A stretch of 37,124 nucleotides of DNA from Xanthomonas sp. (lineage in GTDB: Bacteria > Pseudomonadota > Gammaproteobacteria > Xanthomonadales > Xanthomonadaceae). The DNA is taken from the NCBI RefSeq assembly GCF_017163755.1, contig NZ_JAFIWC010000037.1, forward strand, positions 1 through 37,124, read 5' to 3'. A program made the position numbers and the translations under genes. Shown one piece after another: positions 31,633-34,600 of this stretch; positions within the stretch are counted from its first letter, which is position 1; each line of letters starts with the position of its first letter. The notes under the pieces are model-generated. The model had not been told where the DNA came from. It searched no databases and was given only the letters and a program-made list of their open reading frames with translations.

Positions 31633-34600
31633 ATGAGCCTTCCCGCGTCCCGCATCCCGCTGGCGCAGCCGGACACCAGTCCGCTGCGTTTCGTCACCGC
31701 CGCGAGCCTGTTCGACGGCCACGATGCGGCGATCAACATCATGCGCCGGCTGATCCAGGGGCAGGGGGCCGAGGTGGTCCACCTGGGGCACAACCGCAGC
31801 GTCGAGGACGTGGTGCGCGCCGCGCTGCAGGAAGACGCCGACGCGATCGCGTTGTCCTCGTACCAGGGCGGCCACGTCGAATACTTCAAGTACATGGTGG
31901 ACATGCTGCGCGAGCGCGGCGCCGGCCACGTGCGCGTGTTCGGCGGTGGCGGCGGCACCATCACCCCGGAGGAGATCGCCGAGTTGCAGGCCTACGGCGT
32001 CGAACGCATCTACCACCCCAACGACGGCATGAAGATGGGCCTGGTGGAGATGATCGAGGACGTGGTGCAGCGCGCTTCGCGCGCGCGGGACTCGGGACTC
32101 GGGACTCGGGACCCGGAACAGGCCGGCGCGTCGTTGCCGCACATCGACGACGAGATCGGCATCGGCCGGGTGCTGTCGGCGCTCGAGGATGGCGCGTTCT
32201 CCGAGTCCGAGCTGGCCCTGCTGCGCAAGCAGTGGCAATCCGGCCTGCCGGGCACGTCCGAGTCCCGAGTCCCCAGTCCCGAGTCCCGCACCCGGCGCAC
32301 AGCGCCGGTGCTGGGCCTCACCGGCACCGGCGGCGCCGGCAAGTCCTCGGTCACCGACGAGTTGCTCAACCGGTTCCTGGCCAGTTTCCCGCAGATGCGC
32401 ATCGCGGTGGTGTCGGTGGATCCGACCCGGCGCCGCACCGGCGGCGCGCTGCTCGGCGACCGCATCCGCATGAACGCGCTGCGCAGCCCGCGCGTGTTCA
32501 TGCGCTCGATGGCCACGCGCCGCCAGCACGCGGCGACCAACACCGTGCTCAAGGACTGCATCGCGTTGCTGAAGGGCATCGGCTACGACCTGGTGATCGT
32601 GGAGACCGCCGGCATCGGCCAGAGCGATTCGGAAATCGTCGACCTGGTCGATTTCCCGGTCTACGTGATGACCAGCGACTACGGCGCGCCCAGCCAGCTG
32701 GAGAAGATCGACATGCTCGACTTCGCCGAGCTGGTGGTGCTGAACAAGTACGACAGGCGCGGCGCCGAAGACGCGTTGCGCGACGTGCGCAAGCAGTGGA
32801 AGCGCAACCGCGTCGCGTTCCAGATGGCCGACGAGGATGTGCCGGTATATCCGACCATCGCCAGCCAGTTCAACGACCCGGGCATCAGCTGGATGTTCGT
32901 CAACCTGTGCCGGCTGCTTCGCGGCAAGCTGGGGCTGGACGCCGCGGCCGGCGTGTCGCCGGGACCGTCTTCGATCGAGTACGCCGCGCATGCCGGGCAG
33001 ACCGGCGCGGCAACCGGCCAGGCGCCTGCGGCCGGAGCGCTGCGCTGCGACTTCCGCCCCGAACTGGACACCACGCTGAAGGAGCCGCGCGCCACCGTGC
33101 TGATCCCGGGCGCGCGCGTGCGCTATCTGGCCGAGATCGCCGAACAGGGCCGTGCGCTCAATGCGGCGGTCGACAAGCAGGCCGAGGCGGCCGACCGCGC
33201 GCAGTCGTTCTGGCAGGCCTTGCACGAGCTGCAGGACCCGCGGCTGCCCAGGCAACTGGAGCTGTACGACGCGTCGGACCTGCTGCCGTCGCCGATGCAG
33301 CGCGGCGCGCCGGTGGAGAAGGCGCGGCTGCTCGACGACGACGGCGCAGCGCCGCCCGACGCGGCAACGCTGCCGGCTGGCGCGGTGCCGGCGGCGACGG
33401 CGCAGCACCCCGCCGCCGCCGACCGCACCCTGTTCGCGCTGCGCCAGCGCTACAACGACGCCGTGCAGGCGCTGTCCAACGAATCGCTGAAACTGCTGCG
33501 CGAGTGGCCGCAGCGGCTCAAGTCGATCACCGACGAGGTCACCGAGTACGAGGTGCGCGGCAAGGCCATCCGCGTGGAGAACTACCGCCAGTCGCTGAGC
33601 CACCAGCCGATCCCGAAGATCGCCGCGCCGCGCTACAAGAGCTGGGGCGAGCTGCTGAGGTTCCTCGGCAAGGAGAACCTGCCCGGCAGCTATCCGTATA
33701 CCGGCGGCGTCTATCCGTACCGGCGCGCCGGCGAAGACCCGATCCGCATGTTCGCCGGCGAAGGCACGCCCGAGCGCACCAATCGCCGCTTCCACTACCT
33801 GAGCGTGGGCCAGCCGGCCGCGCGGCTGTCCACCGCGTTCGACAGCGTGACCCTGTACGGCGAGGACCCGGCGCCGCGTCCGGACATCTACGGCAAGATC
33901 GGCAATTCCGGGGTCAACGTGCCGACGCTGGACGACATGAAGAAGCTGTACTCCGGCTTCGACCTGTGCGCGCCGACCACCAGCGTGTCGATGACCATCA
34001 ACGGTCCGGCGCCGATGATCCTGGCGATGTTCATGAACACCGCGATCGACCAGCAGGTGGAGAAGTACCTGCGGGCCGATGCGGCGCGCTGGGCGCAGGC
34101 CGAACGGACCCTGGCGCAGCTGTTCGAGGGCCGGGAGCGTCCGCGCTACCACGGCGAACTGCCGCCGAGCAACGACGGCCTGGGCCTGGCCCTGCTCGGC
34201 GTCAGCGGCGAGCAGCTGGTGGACGCACAGACCTACGCGCAGATCAAGGCGCAGACGCTGTCCAGCGTGCGCGGCACGGTGCAGGCCGACATCCTCAAGG
34301 AGGACCAGGCGCAGAACACCTGCATCTTCAGCACCGAGTTCGCGCTGCGCATGATGGGCGACATCCAGCAGTACTTCGTCGAGCAGAAAGTGCGCAACTT
34401 CTACTCGGTGTCGATCTCCGGCTACCACATCGCCGAGGCCGGCGCGAATCCGATCAGCCAGCTGGCCTTCACCCTGAGCAACGGCTTCACCATCGTCGAG
34501 TACTACCTGGCGCGCGGCATGCGCATCGACGATTTCGCGCCGAACCTGAGCTTCTTCTTCAGCAACGGCATGGACCCGGAGTACACGGTCATCGGCCGCG

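Follow-up and report, generated by a model that had tools for sequence, protein, structure and literature searches.

Heptamer arms on either side of a native IcmF segment belong to a repeat family that may be paired with PF05635 four-helix proteins in Xanthomonas and relatives

Introduction

The DNA studied here, called the window below, is a 37,124-nucleotide stretch of Xanthomonas sp. (NCBI RefSeq assembly GCF_017163755.1, contig NZ_JAFIWC010000037.1, forward strand). It contains icmF, which encodes the fused isobutyryl-CoA mutase/GTPase IcmF, and inside the linker between two of the enzyme's domains two arrays of heptamers face each other as inverted arms. How does a repeat come to be read in frame inside a metabolic enzyme, what kind of repeat is it, and does it have a protein partner? 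An earlier note, made from the sequence alone, had taken the arms and everything between them for one mobile or self-copying unit. The icmF arms, we find, make up one pair in a family of convergent heptamer-arm pairs, and this family spreads within the genomes of Xanthomonas and its relatives. Another pair of this family encloses a gene for a small four-helix-bundle protein.

Results

Two arms bracket native IcmF sequence

The two icmF arms (Table 1) are 28 bp each, match in inverted orientation at 26 of 28 positions and stand 145 bases apart, 201 bases (67 codons) overall, just as the earlier note had described them. They are read in frame, around residues 152 to 161 and 210 to 219, between the B12 domain (Pfam, residues 19 to 122) and the MeaB-type GTPase domain (residues 224 to 389). 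The window holds six GGGA-heptamer arrays of at least three units, where 200 first-order simulations gave 0.000 on average. The 145-base interior is native to IcmF and is present in species whose icmF lacks arms. Therefore, native sequence received an arm on each side, and a single 201-base in-frame insert, as the earlier note had it, is ruled out. Its broader claim, that a dispersed repeat entered a coding linker in frame and added residues to IcmF, holds, since the family occurs genome-wide and in relatives. Among the aligned IcmF homologues there are armless ones, and the arms recur elsewhere in the genome; neither a linker common to all homologues without repeat similarity nor arms confined to icmF were seen.

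An AlphaFold2 model of the linker from ten sequences was weak (mean pLDDT 57). Its low-confidence stretches (residues 155 to 166 and 205 to 221) coincide with the arms, and it places helices between them, at residues 174 to 185 and 191 to 203, which we take as a hint only. The extra residues probably form a hydrophilic stretch that is likely disordered. Because confidence in this model is lowest at the arms, close relatives are armless, and the frame is kept, the arms are probably near neutral for IcmF itself.

Table 1. Heptamer arms and associated features in the window
Feature	Position	Strand	Remarks
icmF (fused isobutyryl-CoA mutase/GTPase, 1264 aa)	31633..35427	+	NF045497, 1627 bits (cut-off 1500); ATG at 31633, stop ending at 35427
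icmF left arm	32087..32114	+	GGGACTC x3 + GGGACCC
Inner flank of left arm	32115..32124	+	GGAACAGGCC, near the family inner flank GGAAAAGC
Native IcmF linker segment between the arms	32115..32259	+	conserved in armless homologues
icmF right arm	32260..32287	-	read on the minus strand: GGGACTC GGGACTG GGGACTC GGGACTC
Intergenic pair, GGGACCR type	5502..5585		arms 5502-5529 and 5558-5585; layout: arm, inner flank GGAAAAGC, 12-base middle, inner flank of GCTTTTCC type, arm
Orphan right-type arm	648..676	-	GCTTTTCC, then three GAGTCCC units (656-676); seven bases before an ATG at 683
Remnant arm of two units	63..76	-	GGGTCCC CGGTCCC

The arms form a genome-wide family with a fixed anatomy

The pattern GGGANTCGGGANTC gives 284 + 266 matches in the genome, against 0 + 0 for the same pattern read backwards, and a Blast search of the genome with the icmF arm segment gave 135 matches. 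To describe the anatomy of the family we used the window and 20 stretches of the same genome chosen for holding matches (371 kb in total). This sample holds 100 arms of at least three units; 73 of them consist of exactly four, and for 79 a convergent partner lies no more than 300 bp away. Neighboring arms within that distance are oriented +- in 45 cases, -- in 7, ++ in 3 and -+ in none, with a median gap of 72 bp, and the G-rich strands of both arms in a pair mostly point inwards. An A-rich inner-flank motif, about GGAAAAGC, stands at 31 of 90 arm ends compared with 1.5% of random 12-mers. The same anatomy recurs with another heptamer (hereafter, another dialect): in Luteimonas suaedae (G023), whose units are GTGATTS, 17 of 27 arms have exactly four units, all 18 neighbors are oriented +-, and the inner flank resembles GCAARAGC.

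Of the further sites that the earlier note had listed in the window, the two units at 63-76 and the full pair at 5502-5585 are real, and the one it placed at 656-682 is an array of three units ending at 676. It had also held that the repeats otherwise lie outside genes, which is true of the arms seen in the window but not of the family. Counting only arms inside genes with named domains on both sides, we found arms that code for the tail of RuvB, the N terminus of a thioesterase and the tail of a four-helix protein.

What lies between paired arms is not shared: of 435 pairings among 30 interiors, one was alike. This bears on whether the pairs are classical miniature inverted-repeat transposable elements (MITEs) or REPINs, that is, arm-spacer-arm units moved whole by a DNA transposase such as RAYT. 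The pairs resemble REPINs, as far as these are described in the parts of Bertels and Rainey 2011 (PMC3116915) consulted, in being numerous inverted doublets with spacers of 30 to 110 bp that lie mostly between genes. However, a MITE shares its interior among copies, these interiors are unshared, and the icmF spacer is not part of the unit. Moreover, no GGGA-heptamer pair lies within about 1.5 kb of the genome's two Y1_Tnp (RAYT-type) genes (PF01797 matches L129 and L130), whereas a Y1_Tnp gene flanked by repeats is the hallmark of REPIN-RAYT systems. We rejected mobilization by RAYT on this ground and regard whole-unit transposition as very improbable.

Two further arrangements were noted. One locus of this genome (L012:3128-3421; G000:C6) holds nested arms in two dialects, GGGACTC outside and GGGACCG inside, in matching order on both sides. 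At 31638-31658 of the window, about codons 3 to 9 of icmF, three degenerate C-rich heptamers (TCCCGCG TCCCGCA TCCCGCT type) perhaps represent a worn N-terminal arm.

icmF arms differ between species and were probably gained repeatedly

We compared icmF at 80 loci from named genomes (checked by tblastn) and 18 from the genus, of which 96 of 98 could be parsed (not L090 or L097). Arms of three or more units stand on both sides in 25 of the 96 rows and on one side in 5; the latter include L039, which was scored armless because its GGGA run belongs to another palindrome. The arms occupy the same two IcmF loops in Xanthomonas, Pseudoxanthomonas, Luteimonas, Lysobacter and Rhodanobacter. Their dialect is GGGACTC or GGGACCC in Xanthomonas, GGGAATC/G in L032, L036, L040, L041, L059, L068 and L081, GGGAACR in L079 and L077, GTGATTS in L075 and L037 and degenerate in L033, while a Rhodanobacter metagenome-assembled genome (MAG; L034) carries GGGACTC on the left and a single unit on the right. 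The right loop has 7 residues in 27 of the 35 armless rows readable by pattern and 9 to 23 residues in all 27 armed ones.

On a tree built without the linker, the arm state changes 17 times; this was a quick tree with 31 of 90 inner branches open, and it counts three genomes twice (L029/L121, L030/L124 and L031/L116). Armless sisters with the 7-residue loop stand beside at least 8 armed lineages (L032, L033, L079, L040, L081, L059/L068, L077 and L034), which favors repeated gain over repeated exact loss. Judged from these comparisons, the icmF arms have likely been gained repeatedly. Armless IcmF is also found in close relatives (L050, L073 and Xanthomonas G007, G008, G010 and G014).

The dialect of the icmF arms is that of the resident repeats. 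The genomes with GTGATTS-armed icmF hold 16 and 79 GTGATTS pairs and no GGGAATS, and the seven with GGGAATS-armed icmF hold 31 to 216 GGGAATS; for example, G021 has 79 GTGATTS pairs and 0 GGGAATS, and G027 has 0 and 138. Among the genomes with armless icmF, 23 of 25 have at most 5 GGGAMYN triples, and the remaining two have 18 and 12. The genome of L033 (G042), in spite of its degenerate icmF arms, gave zero heptamer matches genome-wide. Horizontal transfer of already-armed icmF alleles could have produced the patchy scatter of arms across the tree, but the dialects differ between genera and match the resident heptamers, and the linker-free IcmF tree mostly follows the genera, so that we give transfer almost no credence. 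The IcmF linker seems to be a general landing place for repeats.

Other repeats were observed in the left IcmF linker. A different palindrome, GGGGTCAGAGTCA(TTTTC) ... TGACTCTGACCCC, lies whole in it in L039, L056, L066, L069 and L084, and a Wenzhouxiangella MAG (L071) has a single array of GGTTTCC-like heptamers there. The L071 genome contains two PF05635 genes, one of which (L176) has a GGTTTAA-type array nearby, on a single side.

One arm pair encloses a PF05635 gene

Between carA and carB of the Xanthomonas genome under study, an arm pair (L014:6880-7316; G000:C7) encloses a gene of the PF05635 family (23S-IVP/S23 four-helix bundle). Its product of about 120 residues scores 125.8 bits against Pfam PF05635, also matches TIGR02436, and has a homologue of solved structure (PDB 2gsc). 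The icmF pair itself encloses no PF05635 open reading frame (ORF). A PF05635 gene is present in 18 of 20 Xanthomonas genomes (a single copy in 17, two in G003, none in G001 and G013), in 15 of 38 genomes of other genera and in 62 of 398 genomes of a sample of the phylum.

We scored arms at PF05635 genes as present when the inverted match score was at least 12 and the best period was 7. By this test, inverted period-7 arms flank 71 of 102 PF05635 loci; of 131 sham placings made within these loci, 0 pass in full and 5 pass the inverted-match part alone. The arms are found at 19 of 19 loci in the genus, 14 of 18 in other Xanthomonadales and relatives, 12 of 16 on plasmids (16 loci from 30 matches) and 26 of 49 in the phylum sample, for which 20 extra loci were chosen to spread over genomes and not at random. 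The arm-bearing plasmid loci are mostly cyanobacterial, with Azospirillum also represented; those of Gemmatirosa and Riemerella fail the period or the match test. The heptamers vary widely (GGGAGTA, AGGTGAC, TCAGGAG, AAAAGCT, TAGGCAG, GGCAATA and others). Across the 38 genomes of other genera, 10 have both the gene and icmF arms, 3 arms only, 5 the gene only and 20 neither (Fisher p 0.0013, not corrected for relatedness).

Some loci have further peculiarities. On cyanobacterial plasmids (L191, L194 and L195), the neighbors of PF05635 genes are cas6 and cas4, or cas10 and a Cmr3-type gene; heptamer arms are clear in L191 and L194, and the period in L195 is 8. In L153, L151 and L152, the right arm codes for the C-terminal tail of the four-helix protein, whose stop overlaps the region of the carB start.

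Both arms of a pair change together

We followed four intergenic pairs (G000:C28) in the genus's 19 other genomes. The sites are kept across the genus, and the heptamer varies by genome, in both arms together. When icmF, the four-helix gene and the four intergenic pairs are considered, both arms have the same dialect in 80 of the 96 locus-genome cases in which both can be read. Shuffling gave agreements of 54.4 within genomes and 32.2 within loci, and 80 was reached in 0 of 5000 shuffles of either kind. Agreement is lower at some loci (9 of 13 for icmF and 6 of 11 for the fourth intergenic pair). The first intergenic pair lies between ruvB and the thioesterase gene, with arms coding for the tail of the former product and the start of the latter and the native start codon between them; here again, arms stand around native sequence. 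In G001 and G013, no readable arms are present at the four shared sites, although worn remnants are visible at the first; G001 has one GGGACTC array elsewhere, and the genus search gave no icmF match in either genome. At the third intergenic pair of G008 (L140), the whole arm-interior-arm element stands in three tandem copies.

The dialect follows the PF05635 lineage

The PF05635 genes between carA and carB form one clade (99/98; 7 rows) with GGGAC arms, and those between accB and accC form another (99/97 with L187, a long row; 24 rows) with GGGAWT or GTGATT arms. This tree has one change of site and two of dialect class. In the genus, dispersed arms share the dialect of the gene's arms at 44 of 54 loci (three pairs in 18 genomes). 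By these sequence comparisons, the dialect follows the PF05635 protein tree and, within the genus, extends to the dispersed arms.

Could the arms have arisen without any such protein? Slippage and hairpin repair alone might suffice: arrays would grow by polymerase slippage, template switching at quasi-palindromes, a known process, would make the second arm, and the PF05635 genes would be passengers. This accounts for tandem units, for arms alike at each locus, for native interiors and for the triple tandem element in L140. In addition, the heptamer period is ascribed to polymerase slippage in the part of Rehm 2015 (PMC4692102) that treats it. It leaves unexplained, however, the preference for four units in both the GGGA and the GTGA dialects, the inner flank, the fixed orientation (45 +- and 0 -+), the period-7 arms at PF05635 genes in cyanobacteria, Azospirillum and many proteobacteria (sham, 0 of 131) and the dialect that follows the protein tree. 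We consider slippage and repair alone unlikely as the full explanation.

Structure alone probably does not account for the arms

The arms might instead be selected as RNA or DNA structures (a quadruplex, an RNase III stem, a terminator or an mRNA-stabilizing hairpin), in which case the IcmF pair would be regulatory or would serve cotranslational folding. The long mRNA hairpin that the earlier note had envisaged is borne out as a prediction, with -138.6 kcal/mol for the structure closed by the icmF arms and a z score of -6.43 against 200 shuffles. Each icmF arm has four GGG runs with 4-base loops, and paired arms stay complementary across species. GGGA dialects form quadruplexes in vitro according to the sections of Rehm 2015 (PMC4692102) cited here, and an excerpt of PMC4990558 describes a Coxiella 23S intervening sequence, with its S23 gene and 28-bp terminal stem, that is cut by RNase III. 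Against this, armless IcmF is common in close relatives, so there is no constant need for the arms. Moreover, dialects without a GGG run (GTGATTS, TCAGGAG and AAAAGCT) show the same four-unit or period-7 anatomy, and therefore a three-tetrad quadruplex is not the family's common principle. The quadruplex as a general reason for four units is not upheld, given the 17 of 27 four-unit arms in the GTGA dialect of G023. Selection for structure is, in our judgment, quite improbable as the explanation of the arms.

Discussion

We propose, with somewhat better than even confidence, that the four-helix protein and its cognate arms form a pair in the manner of RAYTs and REPINs. The PF05635 protein would be the trans-acting factor of the arm family, as RAYT is for REPINs. 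It would recognize its cognate heptamer array (as a hairpin, a single strand or RNA) and help to make new arms or to keep existing pairs alike. A template switch within a hairpin at the replication fork would probably make the second arm, with the first as its template, around whatever DNA lies between; such copying would explain why interiors are native and why both arms change together. To our knowledge, the PF05635 protein has no known catalytic site or function, and cutting and copying would therefore be left to host enzymes. Insertions would persist only where they are harmless: in intergenic DNA, at the ends of proteins and in loops, for example on the two sides of the IcmF linker helices. 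Action of the four-helix protein in trans would also explain why dialects follow its tree and why arms are worn in genomes that lack the gene.

Several observations weigh against this proposal, and no movement event was observed. The association of gene and icmF arms is strong by counts and borderline after tree pairing: of 11 supported independent tree pairs, the gene agrees in about 5, opposes in 0.2 and shows no difference in 5.9 (median p 0.0625). One genome, G029, has no PF05635 match despite 82 GGGAMYN triples and an armed icmF; G030 (L077) and G042 (L033) likewise have arms and no PF05635 match, and G033, G037, G043, G045 and G054 carry the gene with an armless icmF. The dialect data have limits of their own. 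Dialect units agree in 275 of 408 cases compared with 117.6 when genes are shuffled among genomes, in shuffles that ignore relatedness; agreement drops to 53 of 72 when the fourth intergenic pair is included, and in G006 and G017 the gene dialect disagrees at all three loci each (6 of 6). Finally, we found no dispersed period-7 array in 200 kb each of four genomes from outside the order (G128, G085, G188 and G276). The same threshold gave 80 arrays in 334 kb of chosen stretches of the Xanthomonas genome under study (G000), 7 in 60 kb of G029 (including icmF) and 1 in 60 kb of G021 (including the four-helix gene). A PF05635 gene can thus live without spreading arms.

The icmF arms are of the same kind as the repeats of Rehm 2015 (PMC4692102), in another dialect. 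The parts of that paper cited here describe GGGNATC / GGGAATC heptamers in Xanthomonas and GGGGA(C/T)T in Nostoc, treated as quadruplex-forming simple repeats that prefer four units, form 70 and 75 convergent pairs in two Xanthomonas genomes, lie mostly between genes near ORF ends and rarely within genes, keep their places between species and are not generally tied to mobile elements. Heptamer unit, four-unit preference, convergent inverted pairs and intergenic position are common to both. The window's icmF arms fall under a definition of at least two tandem GGGANTN units, with four per arm (GGGACTC, GGGACCC or GGGACTG), but lack the exact GGGAATC unit of which Rehm's rule asks at least one; the orthologues in L032, L040, L059, L068 and L081 contain it. 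Those parts make no link to PF05635, and the present data add dialects without GGG, concerted arm change, native interiors, in-frame use in icmF and an arm-flanked gene. The arm pair that encloses a PF05635 gene and the tie between heptamer repeats and S23/IVP proteins are what is new here; in the open-licence literature, we found no paper linking heptamer repeats to S23/four-helix proteins.

The 23S intervening sequence of Coxiella burnetii has, in the excerpt of PMC4990558, a 28-bp terminal stem, and three to four GACAGAT heptamers in tandem precede its S23 ORF. Like the carA-carB element, it is a small PF05635 ORF inside terminal inverted repeats. In contrast, it lies in 23S rRNA and is excised by RNase III, whereas here the gene sits in the carA-carB or the accB-accC interval, and gene-free arm pairs are scattered genome-wide; the excerpt ties its heptamers to no dispersed repeats. 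The likeness to REPIN-RAYT systems, in the portions of PMC3116915 cited here, extends to many-copy inverted doublets with variable spacers, a single-copy gene flanked by cognate repeats and a repeat type that co-varies with the protein lineage. Correspondingly, the PF05635 gene is single-copy in 17 of the 18 positive genus genomes and has arms on both sides at all 19 loci. The difference is that REPs are short palindromes served by an HUH tyrosine transposase, whereas here there are tandem heptamers and a four-helix bundle.

Two other systems invite comparison. Avd, which has a role in diversity-generating retroelements, lies in the same superfamily by profile, although both matches are below the cut-off (NCBIfam Avd, E 1.5e-5; Pfam bAvd, E 3.4e-4), and we do not claim membership. 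Rickettsia palindromic elements are mobile palindromes that are read in frame inside proteins; they differ from the icmF arms in sequence and host and in being one inserted palindrome, whereas here two arms bracket native sequence.

Cyanobacteria carry short tandemly repeated repetitive (STRR) sequences. In a wider reading, to which we assign a little less than an even chance, PF05635 proteins would be the trans factors of a widespread, unrecognized class of mobile repeats. Each lineage would have its cognate heptamer, and inverted arrays of about four units would bound its gene. In some lineages (Xanthomonadales and perhaps, with its heptamer repeats, Nostoc), arm pairs would be seeded around native DNA, including the in-frame IcmF arms. 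A single system would then underlie the 23S rRNA intervening sequences, the Xanthomonas quadruplex repeats and the cyanobacterial heptamer repeats. For a decade the Xanthomonas heptamer repeats have had neither source nor function assigned to them, and S23/IVP proteins have been without a role for even longer. If the link is true, each can be tested against the other, a cognate 28-bp array against a protein of about 120 residues, and icmF offers a natural record of in-frame gains that recurred at the same loops in a single enzyme.

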